Positions 9,690 through 37,610 of a DNA stretch of 40,050 bases are shown here, in pieces. The stretch comes from Psittacicella hinzii. GTDB lineage: Bacteria > Pseudomonadota > Gammaproteobacteria > Enterobacterales > Psittacicellaceae. The position numbers and the translations under genes were made by a program. Positions within the stretch are counted from its first letter, which is position 1; each line of letters starts with the position of its first letter. The stretch lies in NCBI RefSeq assembly GCF_003585935.1, contig NZ_NRJG01000039.1:1-40050 (forward strand), read 5' to 3'. The notes below the pieces were generated by a model that was not told the origin of the DNA, searched no databases, and saw nothing but the letters and a program-made list of their open reading frames with translations.

Positions 9690-12600
9690 ATGAGTAAAAA
9701 TAAAACCCCACCTCAAGGTTTTCCTTTGCTTTCTTTTGCTCAAGGCTTAAAACTTTCACGTTTATATCGGCAGTTTTCCTATCAAACGCATAAGCGCGCT
9801 GGTTTACAACGTACCGTGCGTGACTTTGCGGGTGCTTTGGATCTAGCGGTTGCGGATTTTGCAACGCCAGCTGAAACAACTAAATGGCAAGTAGCACAAG
9901 GCTTACTTGCTTTTAATTATTTTAGTGAGCACGAATTTGCGACTAGTTATCTAACACCACTTGAAGAATTAAATGCTTATAGTGGTTATACCTTTATAGA
10001 AGTTGAAGACCTATACGAAGGAGCACTAACTGACCAAGAACAAGCTGAAATTATTGTGCAAGATCACTATCAAAAAATCCAAGTTGCAGTTAGCGGACGT
10101 ATGAACCGTCAGCTCGATAGTGAACTTGAACTACAAGCGCACTATAATTTAGGCTGTCAAGCTCTCTATGGTGAACTTAAGCCTTTAGAACTTTTTCATG
10201 ATTTAAGCTCAGAACAGCGTGAAGAATGCTTAGAAACAGGTTTTGCCTTAGAAAAGGATTGCTTACTAGAGCAAGTACAACCTTTTATGCGTAAGCAACA
10301 TGGTAAAACCGCCCAATCTGTAAGTCAGACGCAGTTTTATCCGTATTTTATTCAAGGCATGAACAATATTGCCCAACAAGGAGCATTATTGTCTTGGCCT
10401 TTTTACCAAAAACGTTACCAAAATATTAAACAAGCCATTTCGAGTAAATTACAAGCGGCGCAAAGTCGTGCCTTTACTAAAGCCCAAATCTACTCTAATG
10501 GTGAGCTCTATCAACAAGTAAGAGATGCTTATTTAGCTAATGCAAGTAAGTTAGATAATGAGCAACTCGATAAGAGTTTACTAGATAGTAGCAAGCATAG
10601 TAGCAAGCTCGATAATAGTAAGCTTGAGTCTAATCTAAATAACAAGCTTGAGAGTTATAAGTTCGATAAGAGCAGTTTAAGAAGTCAGCGTAATAAACAG
10701 CCAACCTTAACGCTGGCACAACGTGCTGCTATTCAGCAAGAGTATGTAGCGCAAGAGCGAGCTTTAGCCTCTACTCGTCATGAGCAGAATTTACGTCCGA
10801 CGGTTGCAACTTATACTCAAGAGCGCGAGCAAGATCTTGCAACCCAATCTAAGAAAGCAAAAACTACTTGGCAAGCGCTGCACCAGTTTACTGACATAGC
10901 TTATGAAGATCTTGCCCCTCAATATCAAGACATTGATCTGTATGCTGCTCAAGTGCAAGTAAGTTTTACTAATCATCAGGCATTACGTAACTTTATTATG
11001 GCGTATGCGCAACATACTCCTTATCGTAATCTGAACTTTATTGATGTAAGTAAACTTACGTGTTTAGATGGTGTCTTTGCCTACTTACCTTATACCTTTG
11101 ACATTAGTGCTTGGGATGTAAGTCAAGTAACTAGCATGAAAGGGACTTTTGCGTTTTCATGGTTTAATGGGGAGTTAAATACTTGGGACGTAAGTAAAGT
11201 AACAGATATGTCATATCTGTTCTATGCCGGTTTATTTAACCAACCTTTAAATAACTGGCAAGTAGCACAAGTAGAATCTTTAGCTTATACTTTTGCCTAT
11301 AGCTTATTTAACCAGCCTTTAGATACTTGGCAAGTAACACAAGTAAAAGATTTACGTAGTACTTTTGCTAGTGCTTACTTCAATCATAGTGTCGATCATT
11401 GGTGTTTACCACATATCGAGCATTATGATTGTGATACGTTCCGTACCTCAGACGAGTGTAGTATCTATCCATCAGAAATCTGGGATAAGTTAAGTCAATA
11501 TCAGCAACAATTAGCGCAAGGTGTTAGTTTAGGGTCCTTAAAACCAACGCCAATTACCGCTAAGCCTGATTTTATGACCTTAGCCGATGAACAAGCGCGT
11601 CAAGCTGCTCTTGCTAAGTATATGGCGAAGTTACCGCTCAACCCACGTTACGATCAGAAAACCTTTGGCGAACTCTATCAAAAAGATCTGAGTCAAACTG
11701 GCATTAGTCTTAAGTTTACCGACTATTTGTCTTTAGGTATGTTTGTCCGGGATTATTGTAAAACTTTACAAAACTGGCAAGCAGACTTAAACTTTATTGA
11801 TGTTTCTGAACTTAATAACTTAAGTTATGTCTTTACTCGTACGCCATTTAATGGAGATATCTCCCAATGGCAAACCGGTAAAGTTAAGCAAGCACAAATG
11901 CTGTTTTTTGGTAGTAGCTTTAACGGTGATATTAGTCAGTGGGATGTCCGTCAATTAACTAACCTCAAAGCCGCTTTCGCTAAAAGTCGCTTTACCAGAG
12001 ATCTAAGCTCTTGGCAAACTTCGAGCCTAGAAAACTTAGATTATGCCTTTGCCTTTACTAACTTTAATGGTGATGTAAGTGCTTGGGACGTAAGCCGCGT
12101 TAATTCGGCAATCTCAACTTTTATGGGGTCAACCTTTAACCAAGATTTAAGTGCTTGGGTAACTAGTTCTTTAGAGCAAGCAGAAAAAATGTTTGCTTAT
12201 AGTAACTTTAACCAATACTTAGGTACTTGGGATACTACTAAACTGGTAAATGCGAATTTAATGTTTGCCTTTAGTGCTTATAACCAGAACTTAAGTAACT
12301 GGCGCTTACCTAAGCTCGAACGAGCTATGGGAATGTTTGCCATGAGTGAGTTTAACCAAGACTTAAGTGCTTGGCGCTTACCGGCATTAGTGAATGCTAA
12401 TTACTTCTTAGCCTTTACTCCTAACTTTAAGCAAGACCTTAATGGCATCTGGTTACCTAAACTGCAAATGGCACATCATTGGTTAATAGGTACGTCTTAT
12501 AATTACAACCTAACTTGGTTTGTAAACTTATTACCAGCCATGGTTAGTCAGTATCCTAGTGAACTCTATAGTACCCAAGAGTATACTTCTTTACCTGTAG

Positions 12601-13379
12601 GTACAGAACTAGTTGATGTGCAGTTTAGTCAGTTAAGTAAAGAATTAGTGCAAGCCCTAATCGCTACTTATAAACTAAGCGCAGAAGCTAAAAGTAAGGC
12701 ACATAAACTAAGCGCAGAACCTAATGGGAATGAACTTGTTGCTGTAGGTGGTAAACTGCGTTTTAGCAATGCTTGGAGTTTACGTCGTTTCTTAGAAGCG
12801 CTTTTAGCTTTAGAACCGCGCATGGATCTAAGTTTTATCTCCATTGAGGGATTAGCAAACTTAAGTTATATCTTTGCTAAGATCCCACATGTAGCTGTTA
12901 AACTCTCTAACTGGGATTTAAGCCGTGTGCAAGATCTTACGGGAGCTTTTTTAGATGTGCAGTCTCTAACCGGTGTTAGTCATTGGCAATTCCCGCAATT
13001 ACGTTTTGCTTCTGGAGCTTTTTACAATTGTAAAGTGCAAGATGATCCATCTAATTGGCACTTCCCGCCATTAGAAAATTATGTAGGGATGTTTATGCAC
13101 ACTAATTTACATAAAGAGCAAGTAAAACAATTTAATATTGCGGCTGATTGGCAAAACTACTATGCCCTCAATGATGTTGATGAAACTCTTTTAGCAGCAG
13201 AGTTAGATGTAAGATATAGAGCAGGAATCCGTTTACTTTCTCGTCGTAGCCACGACACTTTAAATCTGGTAAACGAAAATCCAAGTTCCGAAGAAATTCG
13301 TGAATTACATCAATATTTTAAAACGCAAGTTGCAGAAGAAATGCAAAGTCAACGTTATATGTGGGTAGAGCAAGAGTAA
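9690..13379 (+). CDS. large DUF285/BspA-like repeat protein
   Basis: A 1229-residue protein. Residues 1-285 match nothing I know. Residues 290-345 are a Ser/Lys/Leu/Asp/Asn-rich low-complexity linker. The rest carries degenerate repeats of about 24 residues of the type F-N-x-D-L-S-x-W-D-V-S-x-V-T-x-M-x-x-x-F-A, the DUF285 (BspA-like, leucine-rich-repeat-related) family, often found on bacterial surfaces and in adhesion. The repeats fall into three blocks (about 449-585, 702-920, 1040-1135). Each opens with a similar cap: [KR]-F-[ST]-type start, a helix, then L-[NS]-F-I-[DS]-[VI] (from about 424, 674 and 1023). There is no signal peptide, lipobox or anchor, so surface location is not supported. 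No Shine-Dalgarno is evident before the ATG. Confidence 0.85.
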   Translation: MSKNKTPPQGFPLLSFAQGLKLSRLYRQFSYQTHKRAGLQRTVRDFAGALDLAVADFATPAETTKWQVAQGLLAFNYFSEHEFATSYLTPLEELNAYSGYTFIEVEDLYEGALTDQEQAEIIVQDHYQKIQVAVSGRMNRQLDSELELQAHYNLGCQALYGELKPLELFHDLSSEQREECLETGFALEKDCLLEQVQPFMRKQHGKTAQSVSQTQFYPYFIQGMNNIAQQGALLSWPFYQKRYQNIKQAISSKLQAAQSRAFTKAQIYSNGELYQQVRDAYLANASKLDNEQLDKSLLDSSKHSSKLDNSKLESNLNNKLESYKFDKSSLRSQRNKQPTLTLAQRAAIQQEYVAQERALASTRHEQNLRPTVATYTQEREQDLATQSKKAKTTWQALHQFTDIAYEDLAPQYQDIDLYAAQVQVSFTNHQALRNFIMAYAQHTPYRNLNFIDVSKLTCLDGVFAYLPYTFDISAWDVSQVTSMKGTFAFSWFNGELNTWDVSKVTDMSYLFYAGLFNQPLNNWQVAQVESLAYTFAYSLFNQPLDTWQVTQVKDLRSTFASAYFNHSVDHWCLPHIEHYDCDTFRTSDECSIYPSEIWDKLSQYQQQLAQGVSLGSLKPTPITAKPDFMTLADEQARQAALAKYMAKLPLNPRYDQKTFGELYQKDLSQTGISLKFTDYLSLGMFVRDYCKTLQNWQADLNFIDVSELNNLSYVFTRTPFNGDISQWQTGKVKQAQMLFFGSSFNGDISQWDVRQLTNLKAAFAKSRFTRDLSSWQTSSLENLDYAFAFTNFNGDVSAWDVSRVNSAISTFMGSTFNQDLSAWVTSSLEQAEKMFAYSNFNQYLGTWDTTKLVNANLMFAFSAYNQNLSNWRLPKLERAMGMFAMSEFNQDLSAWRLPALVNANYFLAFTPNFKQDLNGIWLPKLQMAHHWLIGTSYNYNLTWFVNLLPAMVSQYPSELYSTQEYTSLPVGTELVDVQFSQLSKELVQALIATYKLSAEAKSKAHKLSAEPNGNELVAVGGKLRFSNAWSLRRFLEALLALEPRMDLSFISIEGLANLSYIFAKIPHVAVKLSNWDLSRVQDLTGAFLDVQSLTGVSHWQFPQLRFASGAFYNCKVQDDPSNWHFPPLENYVGMFMHTNLHKEQVKQFNIAADWQNYYALNDVDETLLAAELDVRYRAGIRLLSRRSHDTLNLVNENPSSEEIRELHQYFKTQVAEEMQSQRYMWVEQE

Positions 13380-14594: not shown

Positions 14595-15260
14595 ATGCAA
14601 AGCTTATATTCTTTTTTCCGACATGTAGGGAGACTTACTTGTCGTTGGGGTGGACTTTTAACTCTTGCGAGTAGTCTATGCTTAGCAGCACCAGCTAAAG
14701 CAGGCATCTTCTTTAATACCGTAGTACAAGATACAGTCAATCCCCAAAAAACGCATTCAGGCTTAGTAAACTTGCATATGATTATGCAGAGTTATTACTC
14801 TAAAGTTTACAATGCCCTTTATAACAATCCTATTAAGTCTACCGATGACTTTATTCGGATTTTTACTTATGACATTAAAATCCAATCTTATCTGGCTGTA
14901 ATTCGTACTGCTGCAGGTAAGAATATCCAGATCGATCCTAAACAAGTGCTCTCGATCTACTTAAGCGAACAAGCTCAATGGTGTCATGAGCACATTAAAA
15001 ATCCTTTACAGTTTCAATGCTATACAGCAGAAGCTTTACTTGAAGCCTTTAAACAAATGCCTCCGCAAGTACTCGAAGCCTTAAATTTAGGAGCTTTTGA
15101 TCCTGAATACTATCAAAAACTCTACTCGGACATTACTCTACGTACGCAAATTGATAATATCTTTGCCATGATCCGCGGTAATAAGTTTGATACTGCTTTA
15201 AAGAGATACTTTAACTCTGGAGTTATTACTTACAGTAGTCGTTTTAGTATTACCTTATAG
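14595..15260 (+). CDS. exported protein with conserved Cys pair, cluster member 1
   Basis: A 221-residue protein of no family I recognise. A signal peptide with a long basic start ends A-K-A-G, and the mature chain begins I-F-F-N-T. Signature elements shared with the next three genes are L-H-x-x-M-Q (about residue 56), then Y-L-S-E-x3-W-C, a second Cys 12 residues later, a following M-P-P helix, and Y-F-N-S-G-V near the end. The paired cysteines could form a disulfide in the periplasm or outside the cell. AAAGG touches the ATG directly at 14590-14594, an odd spacing that may mean weak initiation. It probably heads the cluster, downstream of the CRP site. Confidence 0.8.
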   Translation: MQSLYSFFRHVGRLTCRWGGLLTLASSLCLAAPAKAGIFFNTVVQDTVNPQKTHSGLVNLHMIMQSYYSKVYNALYNNPIKSTDDFIRIFTYDIKIQSYLAVIRTAAGKNIQIDPKQVLSIYLSEQAQWCHEHIKNPLQFQCYTAEALLEAFKQMPPQVLEALNLGAFDPEYYQKLYSDITLRTQIDNIFAMIRGNKFDTALKRYFNSGVITYSSRFSITL

Positions 15261-15536
15261 TGGGTGATAGTTAGTGGTTGTTAGAGATCTTTAGAGATCT
15301 TTAGTGATAGTTATCTAGTTCCATATCTATCAGTAATATAGCTACTTAGTTACCTAGTAATCTAACAACTTAGTTACCGAAACAATACAAAGTCATCAAT
15401 ACAAAGTTATATGAATAGCTAAAGTAACATGACTAAAATAAGACTTACGTAAGTAATGCGCTGAGGTATTTTAAAGTATTGTGTAAGACTTTTGCTTTCT
15501 CGACAAACAGAACTTTACCTGTTTTTTAGGTGATGT
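15261..15536. other. intergenic within exported-protein cluster
   Basis: A direct repeat AGAGATCTTT occurs twice at about 15283-15302, followed by TAGTTACCTAGT-type repeats to 15400. AGGTGA at 15528-15533 precedes the next ATG. No terminator seen, so read-through from the first gene is possible. Confidence 0.4.
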
Positions 15537-16682
15537 ATGAGAATATTTATCTCTCAACTCTTAACCTTAATACTTCTTGGATCTTCTCTAGTGAGAAATC
15601 AAGGACAGCATCTTAAGGCTTGGTTAGTTGCAGTTTTAAGTATGGGCTTGCTTAGTCTAAATGGTAGTGCTTTAGCTGATGAGAAGCAACCTTCTCCAGC
15701 AGCACAGCCAGCATCCCAACCAACGCCAACTAAGCCACAAGAGACTAACGAGCGGGATCAAACTCCAAGCACTAGTCCTAGTCCTTCACTAGTGTTACCT
15801 TATTCAATGGTAAGTGTAACTCAAGACATTCCGAGTAATCCCCAAGCGTCAATAGTTTTACCGCGCAAAGGGACAAAGTATGTTTTAAGTTACAATGTTA
15901 AATATAGTTTAACCTTACCCGAACTTTCAGATTGCCACTTAGCTTTAGTTTTTCAAAAGCAACTGCCGATTGTTGCTACTCCTTATAAAGTTGTATATCC
16001 GGTAACTGAAGTTAATCACTTCTTCCGGATTAATCAAGATCCTTATCACCAACAGTATCCAACGGCCAATTTCTACGAGTCGAACTATAAATCCGATGTG
16101 TCAATTGAACGTTTGCATTTTTTAATGCAAACTTACTATAACAATCTCTATAGTTACCTCTATGGACAGACCGTAGATATCCCGACTTTTGTGCGTTTAC
16201 TTTTAAGTATGCCTAACTTTGGTTATTTTAAAGATGAGATTGCTCAAGTATGGGCAATCAGTTGGAGTAACTACTACGGCGCTACATCTACGCCTCCGGC
16301 TTATGATGTAAATAAATTATTCTTAACCTATATTAGTGAGCACTATTACTGGTGTCAACAAAACATTCGTGATGATGCTTTAGCTTTTGCTTGCTATTTC
16401 AATTATCAGTTTGCAGATTTAGTTTTTAACTTACCACAAAACGGTGCTCAACTAGTAAGCCAGTATGCTTATGCGCCAAGTGGTAAATCGGACTCGCAGG
16501 TCGAACATGAGTTAACCAAACTCCTACAACAAGCTCTAAAAAGTCCGGACAGTAATATCTTTATAGCTAAACTGGCAAGTATTTACCATGCCCAGTTTAA
16601 AGAGTTACAAGTTACTAAACCAGCAACTGAGCCTAAGAAATCAGCAGTCAAGCTAAGCTCGTTTTCTCGCGCTCCGGTATAA
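15537..16682 (+). CDS. exported protein with conserved Cys pair, cluster member 2 (long form)
   Basis: A 381-residue protein. The N-terminus has two hydrophobic stretches (about 1-17 and 27-45), the second ending A-L-A before an acidic residue, read as a long signal peptide. A Pro/Ser/Thr/Gln-rich linker follows (about 50-90), then a unique domain of about 90 residues containing one extra Cys. The shared core starts at L-H-F-L-M-Q (about 198) and continues with Y-I-S-E-x3-W-C and a second Cys 13 residues later, then an N-L-P segment. Compared with its neighbours it is the same core with an added N-terminal domain. The basic C-terminal tail is unshared. Function unknown. Confidence 0.82.
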   Translation: MRIFISQLLTLILLGSSLVRNQGQHLKAWLVAVLSMGLLSLNGSALADEKQPSPAAQPASQPTPTKPQETNERDQTPSTSPSPSLVLPYSMVSVTQDIPSNPQASIVLPRKGTKYVLSYNVKYSLTLPELSDCHLALVFQKQLPIVATPYKVVYPVTEVNHFFRINQDPYHQQYPTANFYESNYKSDVSIERLHFLMQTYYNNLYSYLYGQTVDIPTFVRLLLSMPNFGYFKDEIAQVWAISWSNYYGATSTPPAYDVNKLFLTYISEHYYWCQQNIRDDALAFACYFNYQFADLVFNLPQNGAQLVSQYAYAPSGKSDSQVEHELTKLLQQALKSPDSNIFIAKLASIYHAQFKELQVTKPATEPKKSAVKLSSFSRAPV

Positions 16683-16976
16683 GGCCAGCACGAGTAAATT
16701 AGAGTAAACTAGAGCTTATTACAGTAATCTAAAGTCAATTGCAGTAAACAAAAGTAAATTACAGTCAATTACATAGAACTGTAATAAGCTGTAATAAACT
16801 TCTTTAAACAGTAATAAACACATTAAAAACTACATTAAACCACACCTCACAAGGACGTTTTTAAACAGACTTTTAAACATATGTTTTTAAACGTACCTCA
16901 GGTGGTAATAGATAATATCGCCTAGCAGTAATGCTCAGGCGATAAGTTTAACGGCGAAAATTTATGGTTAAACTTT
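16683..16976. repeat. degenerate AT-rich repeats and a mini-frame before member 3
   Basis: 16690-16830 is built from variants of AGTAAATTACAGTCAATTACAG and its complement (TTACAG and CTGTAA occur many times). At 16964 an ATG with GGCGA upstream opens a 10-codon frame ending at TAG 16994-16996. It overlaps the start of the next gene in another frame, so translational coupling is possible. Confidence 0.45.
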
Positions 16977-17693
16977 ATGCCGCATGTATCTTTTAGTCGC
17001 TGGTTAAGTGTAGCATTCATAAGTGTCATTAGTGCTAGCTCTTATGCTGGCTACTTTTTCAACACTTCTTCTCCATGGGCAAGACCGGCTCTGATCAATA
17101 AGTTGGCTTTTGATGAACAAGATTCACGTAGTATGTACGTGTACTCTTTAGCCTTTAAGTCAGCTCCAGAATTAGAAGAGTTTCACACCTTAATGCAAAT
17201 GAACTTTGCGCGTTTACGTGATTTTCTTACTAATCAGCAGTACGAGATTGCCTACTTACCAGCTAAACTAACGCCTTTTAATGGCATGTCGTCTTTAGTG
17301 ACGCAATACTACAATACCACCGGACATAAACTCGAAGTGTTCAAAGAACAAAAAGTCGGCTTTATTACCTATTTAAATGAATTAGTTGATTGGTGTAAGA
17401 TTAATGGTTTTGCTGTAACTGATTACAGTTACAGTTGCTCCGTAGCTTATCGCTACCAAAAAATCCTTGAGTCTTTACCCGAATTTAAAGAGTATATAGA
17501 AGGCGATCCTTATTTCTTTGCCCGCGGACGTCCAGGTCCAGATTATCCTGCGCAATTAGTAGCTTTACGTCGTAAACTACGTAACTTTGATGATCCGACT
17601 AACAGTTTACTGCAATGGTACTTTAACTCTGGAGTAAGAGCTCCAGAACGCCGTGTTGTAACCTGTAGTTATCAATTAGGTACTAATTGTTAA
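16977..17693 (+). CDS. exported protein with conserved Cys pair, cluster member 3
   Basis: A 238-residue protein with a signal peptide ending A-S-S-Y-A-G, then Y-F-F-N-T, nearly the same mature N-terminus as member 1. Core elements: F-H-T-L-M-Q, Y-L-N-E-x3-W-C, a second Cys 14 residues on, S-L-P-E, and Y-F-N-S-G-V near the C-terminus. Two further cysteines lie in the last ten residues. The 10-codon frame at 16964-16996 overlaps its start. The next gene begins 12 bp after its stop, so the two form an operon. Function unknown. Confidence 0.82.
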   Translation: MPHVSFSRWLSVAFISVISASSYAGYFFNTSSPWARPALINKLAFDEQDSRSMYVYSLAFKSAPELEEFHTLMQMNFARLRDFLTNQQYEIAYLPAKLTPFNGMSSLVTQYYNTTGHKLEVFKEQKVGFITYLNELVDWCKINGFAVTDYSYSCSVAYRYQKILESLPEFKEYIEGDPYFFARGRPGPDYPAQLVALRRKLRNFDDPTNSLLQWYFNSGVRAPERRVVTCSYQLGTNC

Positions 17694-17705
17694 TCGAGAA
17701 TACTT

Positions 17706-18341
17706 ATGCAAAAACTATGGCGTCTAGTAGGACTAGTTGGTTTAGGGATAGTGAGCATTATGCCAAGCCAAGCAGGGACTTACTTTTTTACCCATAAATA
17801 TCTGCAAAATCCGCAATTAAGTGTCACCGACTATGATTACTATTATGGTTCGGTAGACTTATCGGCTTTGCATATAGATATGCAGCGCAGTATTACCCAA
17901 ATAGAAAAGCAATTAAATTACTACACTAACTTTACTAAGCGTGATTTAGTGCAGATTTTAGTGAGTTCTGTGCCAAGCTTTAGTCCTTATCTTAAAGCGA
18001 TACAGAACAATCAACTAACTTCTTATAAACCAATTGCAGCTAATCAAACTTACAGCCAATACTTAAATGAGTATGTGGATTTTTGTACCAACCAAAGTCC
18101 AATGCGCGTAAAAACCTATCGTTACAATTGTGCCATGTTAATTAAAGTGTTTACTCTTTTAGCGCAATTGCCAGATGATTTTATTCGCGAGCTCAATCAA
18201 GTAGCAATGAATCCCGATCTAGCACGTAAATTTAGTGCCAATGCAGATCGTTTCTTACGTGCTATTGGTAAGGTTGAAGATCCTGATAGTGAAGCTAATC
18301 GTATTTTAAAATTGTATTATGGGATTAGCATTACCCAGTAA
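17706..18341 (+). CDS. exported protein with conserved Cys pair, cluster member 4
   Basis: A 211-residue protein with a short, clear signal peptide ending S-Q-A-G, then T-Y-F-F-T. Core elements: L-H-I-D-M-Q, Y-L-N-E-x3-F-C, a second Cys 15 residues on, and Q-L-P-D-D. The C-terminal Y-Y-G replaces Y-F-N-S-G-V. It follows member 3 by 12 bp with a weak GAGA ribosome binding site and is the last gene before the hairpin at 18391-18423. Only the two core cysteines remain in the mature protein, which makes it the minimal form of the family. Function unknown. Confidence 0.82.
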   Translation: MQKLWRLVGLVGLGIVSIMPSQAGTYFFTHKYLQNPQLSVTDYDYYYGSVDLSALHIDMQRSITQIEKQLNYYTNFTKRDLVQILVSSVPSFSPYLKAIQNNQLTSYKPIAANQTYSQYLNEYVDFCTNQSPMRVKTYRYNCAMLIKVFTLLAQLPDDFIRELNQVAMNPDLARKFSANADRFLRAIGKVEDPDSEANRILKLYYGISITQ

Positions 18342-19142: not shown

Positions 19143-20627
19143 TTAATAGAAACCTTCGCGTTCTTCACGTAGGCTAATGTAGATGTTTTTTACTTGCGTG
19201 TAAGCATCTAACATCATTTTGTGAGTTTCACGACCAATTCCTGATTCTTTATAACCACCGAATGGTGCACCAGCTGGTAAACGGTTATAACAGTTCACCC
19301 ACATACGACCAGTTTGTACGGCTTTAGCTACGCGAATCGCACGGCTTAAGTCTTTAGTCCAAACTGCCCCACCTAAACCATACACTGAATCATTTGCAGC
19401 TTTCACTACTTCTTCTTCAGTTTCGAATTTAATAATGGTTGCTACTGGACCAAAAATTTCTTCTTGGCTTACGCGATCTTTGTTGCTCTTACTTTCTAAC
19501 AGAGTAGGAAGCATGAACACACCGTTTTGTAATTCTGGTTTGTTTGCACGTTCACCACCGGTAATTACACGACAACCTTCTTCTTTACCAATAGCTACAT
19601 ATTTAAGAATAGTATCTAATTGGCTTTGGTTGATTTGAGCACCCATTACCGTATCATCTTCCCAAGGAAGACCAACTTTAATTTTTTCGAACTCGCCTTT
19701 AATTGCTTCTACGAATTTGTCGTAAATGCCAGCTTGTACGAAAATACGTGAACCAGCACAGCACACTTGACCTTGGTTGAAAAGAATACCTTTAGCCACC
19801 CCTTCAAGTGCTTTATCAAATGGACAATCATCAAAGAAGATATTTGCTGATTTACCACCTAACTCTAGAGTTGCTGGTACTAAACGCTCAGCAGCTGCTA
19901 CAGCTACACGACGACCGATTTCAGTTGAACCTGTAAATGCTAGTTTCGCAAAGCCTGGGTGTTTAAGCATGTATTCACCAGAACGTGAACCTTTACCAGT
20001 AATTACATTCACTACGCCTTTTGGTAATAATGGGTTAATTTTTTCCATTAAAGATAAAAGGCTTAATGAAGTTGTTGAAGATGGGTGAATTACTACCGTA
20101 CAACCTGCAGCTAAAGCTGGAGCGATTTTCCAAGCTGCCATTAAGAATGGGAAGTTCCAAGGAATAATCTGTCCTACTACCCCAATAGGTTCACGTAAGA
20201 CAATCGATAAGTCTTCTTGATCGATATCGTTTACTGTACCTTCTTCAGCAAGTACCACACCCGCAAAGTATCTAAAGTGCTCTACTGCTAATGGGATATC
20301 AGCCGCACGAGTTTCACGAATTGGTTTACCATTATCAAGAGTTTCTTGTAAGGCAAATAATTCTAAATTTTCTTCAATTACGTCAGCGATTTTATTTAAT
20401 AAAGCTGCACGTTCTGCTTTAGTAGTTTTTGAGAAAGTCTCAAAAGCTTTAGTCGCAGCAGCTACTGCCGCATCTACATCGGCATCAGCTGCATCCACGA
20501 AGGTTGCAAGTGCTTGACCATTTGCTGGGTTGTACGAAGTTAAAGCTTTACCTTCAACTCCATTTGTCCATTCACCATTAATGAGTAAGCCATAGTGTTT
20601 TGCAAATACATCTAAATTTTTTGACAT
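19143..20627 (-). CDS. NAD(P)-dependent aldehyde dehydrogenase
   Basis: A 494-residue cytosolic aldehyde dehydrogenase oxidising an aldehyde to its acid. All landmarks are present: P-W-N-F-P at 156-160, F-T-G-S-T at 231-235, E-L-G-G-K with catalytic Glu255, and G-Q-V-C-C with nucleophile Cys289. It resembles the AldB-type branch; the physiological aldehyde cannot be read. One notable change: the usual K-P-[SA] cofactor segment reads V-I-H-P-S-S, placing His181 where most family members have the lysine that contacts the NAD ribose. The frame extends 30 codons upstream, but ATG 20627 aligns with the family start and has GGAG about 9 bases before it. It stands alone. Confidence 0.95.
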   Translation of the reverse strand: MSKNLDVFAKHYGLLINGEWTNGVEGKALTSYNPANGQALATFVDAADADVDAAVAAATKAFETFSKTTKAERAALLNKIADVIEENLELFALQETLDNGKPIRETRAADIPLAVEHFRYFAGVVLAEEGTVNDIDQEDLSIVLREPIGVVGQIIPWNFPFLMAAWKIAPALAAGCTVVIHPSSTTSLSLLSLMEKINPLLPKGVVNVITGKGSRSGEYMLKHPGFAKLAFTGSTEIGRRVAVAAAERLVPATLELGGKSANIFFDDCPFDKALEGVAKGILFNQGQVCCAGSRIFVQAGIYDKFVEAIKGEFEKIKVGLPWEDDTVMGAQINQSQLDTILKYVAIGKEEGCRVITGGERANKPELQNGVFMLPTLLESKSNKDRVSQEEIFGPVATIIKFETEEEVVKAANDSVYGLGGAVWTKDLSRAIRVAKAVQTGRMWVNCYNRLPAGAPFGGYKESGIGRETHKMMLDAYTQVKNIYISLREEREGFY

Positions 20628-22319
20628 ACAACAGTCTCCGTGACTAAGCATGAAATAAAACTTTTTAGCAACTAAAGGTAAACTGGCGTTTCTAGGTTGG
20701 ACTCGGCCCGTTGCCAACCTAGAGAGTAGACTTAGATAAACTAAGCTTTACCGTAGCTAAAAGCACGAAAGCCTTATTACTTCACTCTTGCTACGTTCAC
20801 TTAATTAGGCGCACCTAAACGCAGCTTTTAGGGGGTATAAGAGAGAAATAAAAAACTGACGGGGGATTGTAACTTTAGTACGAGTAACAGTAAATCAACA
20901 AGAACTAAGAGTTGACGTGAAAGCTTTTAGTGCCAGTTTATGGATTTAGCAAAGCTAAAAAACCAAGAGGATCTTAAGTTATTTATTTCCTCTAAAACAA
21001 GTTAGAGGGTTGAAGTATAACTTTAAGAAAAGGGAGTAAAAGAGTAAACAGTTGTTAGACTAAACTTAAATGACCATTAGGAGTACACAATTAGTTGTAG
21101 TACCTCTTAAGGAGATTGTTACTAACTTAGTTAAGCTTAGGTAAAAAGCAATACTTAGCGAATGCCTAAAAGCAAAACTTAGTTAATCACTACAAGCAAA
21201 CTTAGCTAATACTTAAAAAGTAAGAGTTAAGTTTAATTTCCCTGCTGCCAGCCTGTTGCTAAGTAGGTGATAAGAGAATTACCACTTGCTTAAGCAATTA
21301 AACCGATCTCTTAAGTAGGGTAAGTCTGTCTAACTATAGGAATAGTGTCATAGATACTTAAGAGCAGAAATAGAACCCTAAGCAACAAGTTCGGAAAATA
21401 TTCCTCTACTTCTAACGGCAAAGATAAGGAAATAAGTTGTTAGAAGTAAGGAACTAAAAACAAAAGTGTCGCTAAAAAAGCTTTATTTCATTTAGGTTAG
21501 GAGAAATTAAAAATAAAAACTAACTATGAGTTTTACAGCAGTCATTAAATTTATGCCTAAAGCAATGATGCATATCTAATAAATTAGTAGGCATTAATCT
21601 TTTAACTTGTTTCTTTTCCTTTATTATAGGCGGCAATAATTGAAAAAATTACAACAAGGCGTTTTTTTCTTAGATTTATGGCATCCGTTGCACAATATTT
21701 TGATGAAATTGATCCAATCAATCAAAAATTAGCAATTTTGCCTAAAAATGTGAAAAAAAGTTTGGCAATAAGCGCAATAGATAAAGATATATGTGCCTAA
21801 ATATGCCGATTTAAAACGCAAGTAAAACGTAAGTAGTACCTAAAATTTTACAACTTTGTAAAACACACTATAAATCACAACTTAAACCATTGAATAATCG
21901 GTAAAAATATAGGTAGCTTTTCGATCAAAATGTTCAATTTCTTCTTACGTTTTTAACCCCGAAAAAACAATACTTAGCGTCAAATTCACATCTTGAGAAT
22001 AAATTTCACAAGCAAACGTAAGTTTTCACAAAAAATACGATTATTTAAATTATTTTTAATTTGTATCATTTTTGGGGTACAGCTCAACAGGTTTTTAGGA
22101 CTATGAATAAGTGTTGAGAAGTCACGTTGCAGCTTATACAAACTCACGCAAGGAGGCTAGGTGTTGAGACGCCAGGGAAGTGGAGACTGGGTATGAGGGC
22201 AGTAGAGTCTAGGTGTATGGGGAGCGCCTACGAGTGAGGGAAGATAAGTTAGAGTATACGGGATTGAAATGTGGTTGTTGGTGTGAAGTGTGAGGTGTAA
22301 TCATTTTTGCCAAAAGAAA
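20628..22319. other. long intergenic region downstream of a minus-strand unit
   Basis: Mostly AT-rich, with TTAGTTAA- and AAGTAAAA-like imperfect repeats (20870-21260). One possible 40-codon frame lies at 21678-21800. The 22090-22300 segment is strikingly G-rich and C-poor on the plus strand (see findings). No large gene. Confidence 0.5.
21678..21800 (+). CDS. possible 40-residue small protein
   Basis: ATG at 21678 to TAA at 21800. Composition is protein-like (acidic N-terminal half F-D-E-I-D, then I-L-P-K-N-V-K-K, with alternating hydrophobics). The only binding-site candidate, AAGG, is about 20 bases upstream. No family recognised. It could be a chance frame. Confidence 0.2.
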   Translation: MASVAQYFDEIDPINQKLAILPKNVKKSLAISAIDKDICA

Positions 22320-22345
22320 AACCCAGAGAATAAGATCTCTGGGTT
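22320..22345 (-). terminator. intrinsic terminator, minus strand
   Basis: A 10-bp perfect stem AACCCAGAGA (22320-22329) with TCTCTGGGTT (22336-22345), loop ATAAGA. On the minus strand it is followed by TTTTCTTTT. It ends the small-peptide transcript. Confidence 0.85.
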
Positions 22346-22347
22346 CA

Positions 22348-22422
22348 TCATTTCGAACATATTTCTACGTCTATGTTGCTTAGGCATAGCTGTAGAGATA
22401 GGTACAGGTAAAAACCTGTCAT
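22348..22422 (-). CDS. possible 24-residue second small peptide
   Basis: ATG at 22422 with AGGAAA just upstream on the minus strand, 24 codons to TGA at 22350-22348. The product is hydrophobic in the first half (F-Y-L-Y-L-S-L-Q-L-C-L), then acidic. Its first codons lie in a hairpin (22404-22409 with 22414-22419), which may gate translation. It ends two bases before the terminator stem. Speculative. Confidence 0.25.
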   Translation of the reverse strand: MTGFYLYLSLQLCLSNIDVEICSK

Positions 22423-22581
22423 GTTTCCTGTGCCTTGCGGAATATTAAGTAAATTACTCTTGCTTATTTTGACTCTTATTTTAGAGATAGAATTACTAAA
22501 GTAATTGATGTAAGCTACGCAACTGATGTTACGAATGTAAATTACTTAGATTAGTTCAAACTGTTTAAACTTTAATGGCAG

Positions 22582-22635
22582 TTAAATTTTAAACATTACA
22601 AATAAACTAATTCCTGCTAGTGCAAGAAAGATCAT
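22582..22635 (-). CDS. possible 17-residue hydrophobic membrane peptide
   Basis: ATG at 22635, stop TAA at 22584-22582. The peptide is almost wholly apolar (start M-I-F-L-A-L-A-G-I, then S-L-F-V-M-F-K-I), enough for one short membrane span, with a single lysine near the C-terminus. A good ribosome binding site, AAGAGG (22645-22650 on the plus map), sits 9 bases upstream. It lies in a compact unit with a TATAAT, a 170-nt leader with three hairpins, and a terminator. Very short hydrophobic products of this kind include Ibs/Fst-type toxins of type I toxin-antitoxin loci and small subunits such as KdpF or CydX; nothing here decides between them. Confidence 0.45.
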   Translation of the reverse strand: MIFLALAGISLFVMFKI

Positions 22636-22701
22636 GTTAATTTACCTCTTAACTTAATTACCTAAATAATATTAGATGAGCGTAATTAACTCGACTAGGA
22701 A

Positions 22702-22806
22702 CGTAAATTCATCTTGGCAGAGATGAGATTTACGGAGAGTTTATAAAACTTTATAAACTCGCACTGCAAAGCTGAGGAGGGATGCAAAAAGCTCCTTTAG
22801 CTTTTT
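22702..22806 (-). promoter_or_regulatory. structured leader of the small-peptide transcript
   Basis: Three hairpins lie between the TATAAT and the peptide: AAAAAGCT/AGCTTTTT (22786-22793, 22799-22806), GAGTTTATA/TATAAACTC (22737-22745, 22752-22760), and a 13-pair stem CGTAAAT-TCATCT (22702-22714) with AGATGA (22721-22726) and ATTTACG (22728-22734) around a TGGCAG-type loop, with one bulged base. Confidence 0.5.
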
Positions 22807-22816
22807 AGGCTTGCTC

Positions 22817-22822
22817 ATTATA
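22817..22822 (-). promoter_or_regulatory. minus-10 box of the small-peptide unit
   Basis: A perfect TATAAT on the minus strand, with TTGTGC 19 bp upstream as a weak minus-35. It would start transcription near 22810, immediately before the first leader hairpin. Confidence 0.5.
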
Positions 22823-22860
22823 CTCTTTTTAGTCGCAATTTGCACAAGATGAGTATGGAC

Positions 22861-23032
22861 CTGCTACTCTAATGGTTAATACTTGCTATTCTAGGACTAA
22901 AAGCTTGCCACTCTACTGATTAAAACTTACCACTCTAATGATGAAAGTCTATTACTCTAGCTTGAAAAGATTATCACTCTAGTATTGCAAGTTTATTACC
23001 TAGCGCTGCAATCTTATTATTCTCATGATACA
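22861..23032 (+). repeat. degenerate 22-bp tandem repeat, about 8 copies
   Basis: Units begin at 22861, 22882, 22904, 22926, 22948, 22970, 22992 and 23013. Consensus is about CTTAYYACTCTARTGATKAAAG; the ACTCTA core is best kept. Spacing is 21 or 22 bp throughout. It lies between the small-peptide promoter and dnaQ. Confidence 0.75.
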
Positions 23033-23293: not shown

Positions 23294-25135
23294 ATGACAG
23301 CAGATAAATCTCTTGGTGATGTTTCTCAAGAACCTATAGAAAGTACGGAGAATACAACGTCAACTTCTTCAACTCATGTATCGAGTTTTTCTATACATGA
23401 TATTTCTAATCTAGATGCCCAAAAACGCAGTTCATCAAGCAATATATATTCGAGTGATGCTGAACCCGATTACGATGAAGATGATGAAGACGATCTAGAC
23501 TTAGCAACCCTTATTCAAAAAAATAAAGGTCTGCAAGGTGCAGAGCAAGCTGCGCAAGATAGTGCTGCTGTAGCCCAAGATAGTGCTGCTTTGGCACAAG
23601 ATAGTGCTGCTTTGGCACAAGATAGTGCTGCTTTTATGCAAGGGCAAGCGCAAGCCCAAGGCATGCTTGAGGCCGCAGCAATGCAACAAGCCATTCTTGC
23701 TGGACAGCAAGCTTTTGCGACAGAACAAAAGTATCTCCATGCCCAGCATCATGGTGCAGCAAGCTTAGATGCTTCAACTGATGACGGGTGGATGGCAGCT
23801 CTCGCCGCAGATGCGCAGACCCAACAACAGTTTGCCCAGCAAAAAGCCACTGCACCTGATGATGTGCAAGCCGCTTTAATGCAAAAACGAGGCGAAGACT
23901 TCTCTCCAGGGCAAGCTATCACTGGAGATCACTATAGTGAAAATCCTCCAGTCGAACAAGAAGTAGAACTGCCGTTTGACTATAGTGTGTACGATATCTA
24001 TCGCCAACAGGATCATAGTTATTCCCAATCACCACCTATTGATTTTAGTTATGATGAAGCTACTTTTTTAGCTAAGCAATCATTAGTAACTCAAGGTGGG
24101 ATGATTGACTATGAAGAATCAGAATTCCCTTTAACGCGTTTTGAGGTAGAACTCTATGCGCAATATCCTGAATTACGTCCAGATCCGATTGGTGATGCCT
24201 TTACCAAGCATAGTCTCGAATACGTAAAAGCTCTACATGCTAAAAAATTCGACTGCTACTTTATGGATACCGAGACCACGGGGATGACTCGTGAACCTGG
24301 ACGTAAACCATCCGATGGACATCGGATCATTACTTTAGGGATGGTGCCGTTTTTCAATGACCGTTTAGATCTAGATAACACCGAACAAATGGTCGACTGG
24401 GTATTTAATCCAGAAGAAGTAGAAATCGAGCACGAAGCCTATAAAGTACACGGTTTTAAAAATAAAGACTTAATCCACGCACCAATTTTCCACGAGTTTG
24501 TGGATGAATTTGTGCAACGCATTATGGGTAAAGTACTCATTATTCATAATGCTCCCTTCGATTTAGCTTTCTTAAACATGGAGTTAAAACGAGCGGGAAA
24601 AAACTTCGAAGTTGAAGATATTTGTTTAGTAATCGATTCTTTAGTATTGGCACGTAGTCTGTATCAAGGACGTGCATCACTTGATGCCCTTTCAGAAAGA
24701 TTTGGTGTAAGTATTCGCCGTGACCTGCACGGGGCATTACTTGACTCCATGATTCTTGCCGATGCCTATATTCGTATGCTGAATTCTTTACAAGAAGAAT
24801 GGCTAATCGACAAAACTAAAGGCTTTAAACGGCCCATTATCTGGGACTTCGATGATGAGGATACTCCTCCTTTAGATCCAGAATTAATTGCGCTAGCAAA
24901 TACGCTTAAAGTAACGGTGTCTGAAGAAGATTTGCAGCGCCACGAGAAATTTTGTGAAGAATTTAATATCGTAACAACCTTTGACTTGATTTCTAAAGCT
25001 AAACAACTCGAATTACAACAACAAGAAAAAGCTCGTCAAGAGGCAGAGTTAGCTGAAGCAGCTGAAGACGAAGAAGAGTATGCAGTTGAAGAACAAGCAA
25101 TTGTTGTAAATAATACTGAGACAGAAAGCGCTTAA
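23294..25135 (+). CDS. dnaQ: DNA polymerase III epsilon subunit with long N-terminal extension
   Basis: A 613-residue protein; E. coli DnaQ has 243. The 3'-5' proofreading exonuclease domain occupies about 318-505 with intact DEDDh residues: Asp325 and Glu327 in D-T-E-T-T-G, Asp423 in H-N-A-P-F-D, His479 and Asp484 in H-G-A-L-L-D. The following A-N-T-L-K-V-x8-L-x-R-H-E segment resembles the E. coli C-terminus that binds the alpha subunit, so this is the replicative epsilon, not a stray exonuclease. Residues 1-317 are additional: Ser/Thr-rich, then an acidic patch (57-71), four A-Q-D-S-A-A-L heptads (about 86-113), and Gln/Ala-rich sequence. An acidic Glu/Ala tail follows at about 575-613. The ribosome binding site is weak. 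ribA follows by 4 bp. Confidence 0.92.
23555..23632 (+). repeat. 21-bp in-frame tandem repeat in dnaQ
   Basis: Four copies of a 21-bp unit (CAAGATAGTGCTGCT conserved at 23555, 23576, 23597 and 23618) encode the heptad A-Q-D-S-A-A-L. Copies 3 and 4 are nearly identical, so copy number may vary between strains without breaking the frame. Confidence 0.85.
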
Positions 25136-34940: not shown

Positions 34941-35142
34941 AATAATCTATATAAAATATCTTTTGAAAAAATTTAGGTTAGCTAGCTATTGCACTCCATA
35001 CATGTCAATTAGTCTGGGTGTTTAAACTAACTGCGAACTATTTTACTATACTTTTGTCATTTTTGCACGAAAATACAGGCTTGAGCAGAGTTAGCTTGGT
35101 AAAAATGTTAGCGTAAGGGAACAAAGTAAAGACAAATTAAAT

Positions 35143-35264
35143 ATAATCTCAATACAACTTCGATACTATCTTAATATAGCCTTAAGACAATCTCAATATA
35201 AGCTTGAATACAATCTCAATACAACCTTAGTACAACCTTAATGCAATTTCAATACAACTTTAAT
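35143..35264. repeat. degenerate 11-bp tandem repeat, about 11 copies
   Basis: Consecutive units follow ACAAYCTYAAT (for example ATAATCTCAAT at 35143 and ACAACCTTAAT near 35232) with nearly constant 11-bp spacing, about one helical turn. Confidence 0.75.
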
Positions 35265-35314
35265 CTTTAAGTTGTATCTGAGCTGTACCCCGAAGATCAT
35301 ACAAACCAGATTTC

Positions 35315-35486
35315 AGACTGATCTCAGAATAGACCTAAGAATCGACCTCAAACCAGACCTCAAATTAGATCTAAAACCAGACCTCAAACTATACCTCAAA
35401 CTAGACAACAAATCAGATCTCAAACTAGACACCAAACCAGACACCAAATCAGACATAAAACTAGACACTAAACAAGATCTCGAGCT
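35315..35486. repeat. degenerate 12-bp tandem repeat, about 14 copies
   Basis: Units follow AGACCTCAAACT. In one frame they would read as x-D-L-K tetrapeptides, but that frame has only a TTG start, no binding site and no unique sequence, so I treat the array as non-coding. Confidence 0.75.
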
Positions 35487-37045: not shown

Positions 37046-37515
37046 AAATAATCGAAAATAATAAAACAAAGTTACATCAACATAGTGAGGGCTGATACAA
37101 GCATATAGTGCTCGCGCTCTACAAGAGATAGCCATGCTATAAAGTTAGAATCTAACTAGCAACATAGCGTGATATTAGCAACATAGCGTAATATTAAGCA
37201 TTGTAAAAGCGCTGAAGCGAAGATGCTCTTACCGAAATACCTCAACTCATGAAGAAGAATGGTTGCGACATTCTTCCTAATAGCAAAACGCAAAAGCTTA
37301 AGGGTAAACTTTATTCCTCATACTTAAAACAAAATCACCAATTGATCCCCTTATGCTATTTATTCCCTAATTCTAATTAAACCTCTTATGTTACTTATTG
37401 CCTACTTCCAAGTTATTGCCTACTCCCAAGCTCAACAATTAGCGTTTTTTGCCCTTGTAGTAGCAATGAAATTAGCAACAAATTAAGCAACCATGGAAGC
37501 AACGATAAAATCAAC

Positions 37516-37610
37516 CAAGTAAGCTCAATATAAGCAACCAAGTAAGCCCAATATAAGCAATCAAGTAGACACAAAGTAGACACAAAGTAAGCACAATGTC
37601 AGCAATCAAA
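37516..37610. repeat. 23-bp repeat, about 4 degenerate copies
   Basis: CAAGTAAGCTCAATATAAGC-like units begin at 37516 and 37539 and continue in a broken form (CAAGTAGACAC, AAAGTAAGCACAATGTCAGC). Confidence 0.65.

Follow-up and report, generated by a model that had tools for sequence, protein, structure and literature searches.

A strongly folded orphan unit with an intrinsic terminator between two divergent genes of Psittacicella: a candidate structured RNA

The aldD-dnaQ gap and the elements of the unit

The window analyzed here, a stretch of 40,050 nucleotides, is contig C149 of the 2.48 Mb draft genome of a member of Psittacicella, a bird-associated genus. A 2.6 kb gap separates an aldehyde dehydrogenase gene on the left (called aldD here; 19143-20717, minus strand) from a gene encoding a dnaQ-like exonuclease on the right (23294-25135, plus strand), and the unit under study lies inside this gap on the minus strand (22310-22822). 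Both neighbors are divergent, and neither their 3' ends nor that of any annotated gene falls in the gap. The 1.6 kb ahead of aldD (20718-22309) lacks a convincing gene and displays moderate structure at about 21250-21549. Many intergenic stretches of the window, including 22862-23004, 35129-35481 and 37484-37609, are filled with degenerate tandem repeats of about 11-36 bases per period. Elsewhere in the window, the plus strand encodes a protein of 1229 residues in which DUF285 repeats (Pfam PF03382) form six stretches and whose neighbors are conserved (9690-13379), as well as four secreted-looking proteins in a row (14595-18341), of which the two that were tested (16977-17693 and 17706-18341) had no match in Pfam. 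Between flavodoxin and dnaQ, P. gerlachiana (L025) and P. melopsittaci (L027) encode different small secreted proteins.

The initial annotation of this stretch had listed a TATAAT, three leader hairpins, a ribosome binding site, two small frames and a terminator on the minus strand, and all of these elements are present within 22310-22822. The TATAAT (22822-22817), a candidate -10 element, would place the start of the RNA near 22811. It is followed by leader hairpin A (22807-22785; AAAAAGCTAAAGGAGCTTTTT; p = 0.84), the 5' arm of a long-range helix termed P2 (22778-22766), and leader hairpins B (22760-22737; p = 0.97) and C (22734-22702; p = 0.98). The 13 pairs (7 + 6) ascribed to the third hairpin were found, while the first two, counted before as 8 and 9 pairs, contain 9 and 10. 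The ribosome binding site described as good is a Shine-Dalgarno (SD) sequence, GAGGT (22648-22644), located 9 nt before the ATG (as measured by the script used) of the 17-codon apolar frame (MIFLALAGISLFVMFKI; 22635-22582). Hairpin D (22695-22631; p = 0.77-0.97) buries this SD and the start codon region, and hairpins E and F (22627-22550; p = 0.90-0.98) hold the coding bases of the frame. Further along are a branched domain, G (22548-22446; p = 0.76-0.98), with an 11-pair closing stem and inner hairpins, and the 3' arm of P2 (22438-22426), within which lies the AGGA that would serve as SD for the 24-codon frame (MTGFYLYLSLQLCLSNIDVEICSK; 22422-22348). The ATG of the latter abuts a hairpin of 6 pairs. 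Hairpins H (22419-22404; p = 0.98) and I (22400-22360; p = 0.60-0.98) precede the intrinsic terminator (22346-22319), which consists of 11 perfect pairs and a T-rich tail.

On the opposite strand, a hydrophobic frame of 27 codons (MFPVPCGILSKLLLLILTLILEIELLK; 22421-22504, plus strand) is preceded by a weak SD. Both this and the 24-codon frame are probably incidental, and neither showed a family match in Pfam or NCBIfam. A 34-codon frame (MSKPKKLKELFASLLSFAVRVYKVL; 22741-22845, minus strand), whose C-terminal part is basic and amphipathic, runs over the TATAAT and would therefore be untranslatable from a start site near 22811. The -35 element is weak (TTGTGC, matching at 3 of 6 positions, with a 19-nt spacer to the TATAAT), the TATAAT was not among the matches of a consensus promoter scan, and this hexamer, with a frequency of 0.8 per kb of intergenic strand, is uninformative alone. 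Since the -35 is poor and TATAAT is common in this genome, a promoter belonging to the unit is plausible as a prediction only.

Terminator and fold

Strong intrinsic terminators were scanned in 412 kb, comprising the window and about 372 kb more of the same genome. Those with at least 10 perfect pairs number five in the window, compared with a mean of 0.3 in six shuffles, and the terminator at 22346-22319, described earlier as strong, is accordingly more than a chance feature. Over the 412 kb, 69 strong terminators stand behind a gene of the same strand, 13 do not (together 82 intergenic cases), and seven are inside genes. Most of the 13 adjoin a gene of the opposite strand at its 3' end, and two are close to where a contig or the window ends; a further orphan terminator is located behind a tRNA-Arg pair (C161). 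Divergent gaps harbor 3 of the 82 intergenic terminators, namely those of the RNase P RNA (C174:8125), of the thr-operon leader (C132:44285), which has a leader peptide (MYFLVTTTTTYCD) and thrA downstream, and of the unit, the former two representing positive controls. As these two belong to real RNA elements, a position of this kind marks real RNA elements in this genome; moreover, a terminator placed between the 5' ends of divergent genes leaves no gene for 22346-22319 to serve. This location, although indirect as evidence and not invoked in the initial annotation, constitutes the strongest ground for a real transcript.

The minus strand of the unit (509 nt) has a predicted folding energy of -141.4 kcal/mol and a z of -7.5 relative to 100 dinucleotide shuffles. 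Because the intergenic DNA of this genome is hairpin-rich (mean z -3.0, sd 2.0, in 44 windows), this z taken alone overstates the structure of the unit, which ranks first among the sampled intergenic windows of its size, a rank that carries some selection as the ends of the unit had been drawn around its hairpins. Pairs with p > 0.8 include 53% of its bases (0.530), compared with a mean of 26% (0.263; sd 9.5; maximum 52.7%, 0.527) in 150 intergenic windows and with 21% (sd 8) after shuffling. The fold is strand-specific, the fraction of bases in such pairs being 0.53 on the minus strand vs 0.29 on the opposite strand, and it stays well determined when the terminator is removed. It is best determined with 5' ends between 22830 and 22780 and blurs at 22845 or further upstream. 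In the predicted structure, P2 closes a multibranch domain that spans about 330 nt, with 22778-22766 pairing to 22438-22426 (p = 0.96-0.98); the helix predicted outermost, between 22816-22812 and 22359-22355, is unreliable, as it would lie upstream of the probable start site. Two other intergenic minus-strand segments of the genome, C124:16786-17294 (L052) and C209:9053-9561 (L061), are nearly as stable or as well determined, and are candidates for further RNA genes or large inverted repeats.

The 17-codon frame and the search for relatives

The 17-residue peptide has a mean hydropathy of 2.34 and one Lys near its C-terminus, and is encoded by ATG ATC TTT CTT GCA CTA GCA GGA ATT AGT TTA TTT GTA ATG TTT AAA ATT. 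Apart from this frame, no SD-led frame of 12-60 codons in 93 kb of intergenic DNA has a mean hydropathy of at least 1.9, and shuffles are expected to contain 0.95 such frames with an SD of at least 4 bases and 0.2 with an SD of at least 5. At this chance rate, a search over many frames should turn up one like it. In the predicted fold, the probability that the SD is unpaired amounts to 0.05 for the 17-codon frame and 0.03 for the 24-codon frame. Of 200 synonymous sets, which were drawn from the genome's own codon usage and serve as a null model only, 197 fold less stably and with less definition than the native codons, and so the bases of the frame appear to be constrained by the fold beyond any peptide. 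This constraint is compatible with translation of the frame. The view that the 17 codons encode the product of the unit is not supported, given that frames of this kind arise at chance rate, that the peptide is absent from the three congeners, that its SD is predicted to be buried and that its bases are taken up by helices. The peptide may well be a by-product of folding.

Relatives of the unit were sought at the DNA, peptide and structure levels. By blastn, a second copy was not found in its own genome, nor were relatives of the unit DNA found in three Psittacicella and 55 further genomes of the order, where only short matches at chance level appeared; within the genus no relative was detected at E ≤ 10. 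A 32-nt match of 84% upstream of aldD in P. melopsittaci (L030:7329-7360) was dismissed by eye as A-rich and isolated. In the genus, the 17-residue peptide matched only itself. The covariance model of the leader had no relative in the same 58 genomes, and three single-sequence covariance models of domains gave no co-located matches in the genus at E ≤ 10. In phages and plasmids, matches reached about 40 bits at best (25-58 bases long, E ≥ 0.5), and Rfam yielded only chance-level scores under gathering and relaxed thresholds. The back-translated peptide pattern had one exact match in viral contigs (L065:7056-7082), located outside the listed frames of at least 20 residues. Since no relative was found, the fold is without support from covariation.

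The congeners compared are three other Psittacicella species (contig names P. gerlachiana, P. hinzii and P. melopsittaci in the dnaQ alignment scan). In those congeners whose sequence covers the region upstream of dnaQ, other genes are located within about 130 bp of dnaQ, and the unit is therefore absent from that place. As the congener genomes are 89-92% complete and their DnaQ proteins only 52-55% identical to that of the window, a fast-changing RNA could escape detection.

A proposed regulatory RNA and alternative explanations

The unit is probably a real gene for an RNA, missing from the annotation. Based on the terminator and the fold, it is proposed that this is a stand-alone regulatory RNA with a defined structure, in which the small frames would be inaccessible as long as the molecule is full-length, a reading to which a probability of roughly 0.5 is assigned. 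A minus-strand transcript of about 500 nt would start near 22811, fold into a compact multibranch structure held by the helix between 22778-22766 and 22438-22426, and end at the intrinsic terminator (22346-22319), its most likely role being regulation and not the coding of a protein. With the ribosome sites of both small frames predicted to be paired in the full-length RNA, the 17-codon frame would be silent or incidental; were the RNA processed or opened, this frame could yield a minor product, as in a dual-function RNA. What this retains of the compact unit first described is a discrete minus-strand transcription unit, backed by the orphan terminator and by the strand-specific, well-determined fold, and not the 17-codon peptide as its product.

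Known RNAs provide partial parallels. RNase P RNA, tmRNA and CsrB-type RNAs resemble the unit in size class and in having an orphan terminator. Identity with tmRNA or RNase P RNA was rejected, since the unit matches neither family model and does not show the tRNA-like ends of a tmRNA, and the genome has its own tmRNA (C153) and RNase P RNA (C174), and identity with a CsrB-type RNA was rejected as the unit contains only three GGA motifs. Dual-function and other intergenic regulatory RNAs share with the proposed RNA a stand-alone intergenic transcript, an intrinsic terminator and a tiny frame in a structured RNA. AzuCR and SgrS/SgrT of E. coli are dual-function RNAs with a small frame, and these as well as VcdRP are shorter than about 500 nt. 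The unit differs from the three in being longer, at about 500 nt, in that its frame is apparently closed to ribosomes, and in that neither a target, a sequence relationship nor conservation is evident. VcdRP of Vibrio cholerae is a dual-function RNA as well, with the 29-residue VcdP (PMC8672173).

Intergenic palindromes, chance frames and a chance TATAAT could together give the appearance of a unit where there is no gene. Compatible with this explanation are the general abundance of intergenic hairpins in this genome (mean z about -3) and the lack of conservation in the congeners. It is nevertheless considered unlikely given that a unidirectional terminator of 11 pairs in a divergent gap is rare, that genuine RNA elements account for both other cases, and that the fold is specific to one strand and better determined than any other sampled. 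An attenuator of aldD, in which a leader peptide, a structured region and a terminator would precede the gene (start 20717, minus strand), has a counterpart in the thr-operon leader of the same genome (G000:C132:44017-44304, L047:4017-4304, plus strand). In that unusually spread-out leader, a short SD-led frame of 13 codons is likewise followed, in a divergent gap, by a strong terminator, 227 nt from the stop codon compared with about 236 nt behind the 17 codons of the unit. However, thrA follows its terminator after 680 nt, whereas aldD, which is not a biosynthetic gene, lies 1.6 kb past that of the unit; besides, the 17-codon frame lacks a run of regulatory codons, the fold lacks a clear antiterminator, and congener aldD genes have no such leader upstream where sequence covers it. 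Attenuation thus appears the least probable of the explanations weighed here.

The remaining alternatives assign the function to the peptide. The layout had been compared with that of type I toxin mRNAs. On this reading, the 17-residue peptide would be a small membrane toxin, with the long structured leader blocking translation of the full-length mRNA and an antisense RNA from the plus strand repressing it. The tiny hydrophobic frame, the buried SD and the long structured leader of that layout are indeed found, and a signal of an antisense RNA, the partner by which this class is defined, is not. Long leaders occur in the mRNAs of ldrD and of hok, where the leader is highly structured (PMC4147584), and, together with ibs mRNAs, these resemble the unit in combining a long structured leader and a buried ribosome site with a tiny apolar peptide (PMC4147584; PMC8309996). 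IbsC has 19 residues and can be shortened to 15, at least 10 of them hydrophobic, many type I toxins carry a C-terminal positive charge, and these toxins have little sequence in common (PMC8309996). The peptide of the unit, at 17 residues, is about the size of IbsC or slightly shorter, is apolar with one Lys near the C-terminus and is led by GAGGT, and the SD unpaired probability of 0.05 agrees, as a prediction, with the translation-inert full-length mRNA of hok-like members. Conversely, plus-strand promoter matches are not above chance (a consensus scan that cannot exclude an antisense RNA), the plus strand contains only a terminator-like site of 5 pairs, and the unit differs from known type I toxin mRNAs in having neither repeat copies in the genome nor a homolog in the genus. 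Furthermore, the longer frames matched nothing in Pfam or NCBIfam, scans for which the 17-residue frame is too short, and the frequency of such frames is that of chance. Altogether, a type I toxin mRNA is judged unlikely but still a serious minority alternative. The mRNA of a small non-toxic membrane protein, e.g., a regulatory subunit of a membrane complex, is viewed as less probable still: an SD, an ATG, 17 apolar codons and a stop are in place and the frame is the sole one with such hydropathy (at least 1.9) in 93 kb, but it is absent from the congeners, when a subunit of this sort usually shares the conservation of its complex, and shuffles give 0.2-0.95 frames of this kind while its coding bases lie in helices.

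There is a small chance that the unit represents a new large structured RNA (about 500 nt), restricted to its lineage and unrelated to any described family; such an RNA might be an mRNA locked against translation in the manner of hok, with the 17 residues as its membrane peptide. Should a toxin be made from this frame, few type I toxins would be smaller. As one orphan element for which no conservation was found, the unit is of modest interest unless expression or toxicity appears. If transcribed, it would add an RNA gene missing from the annotation of a bird-associated genus that has received little study, and a strong terminator between two divergent genes may offer a simple way to find RNA genes that have no relatives.
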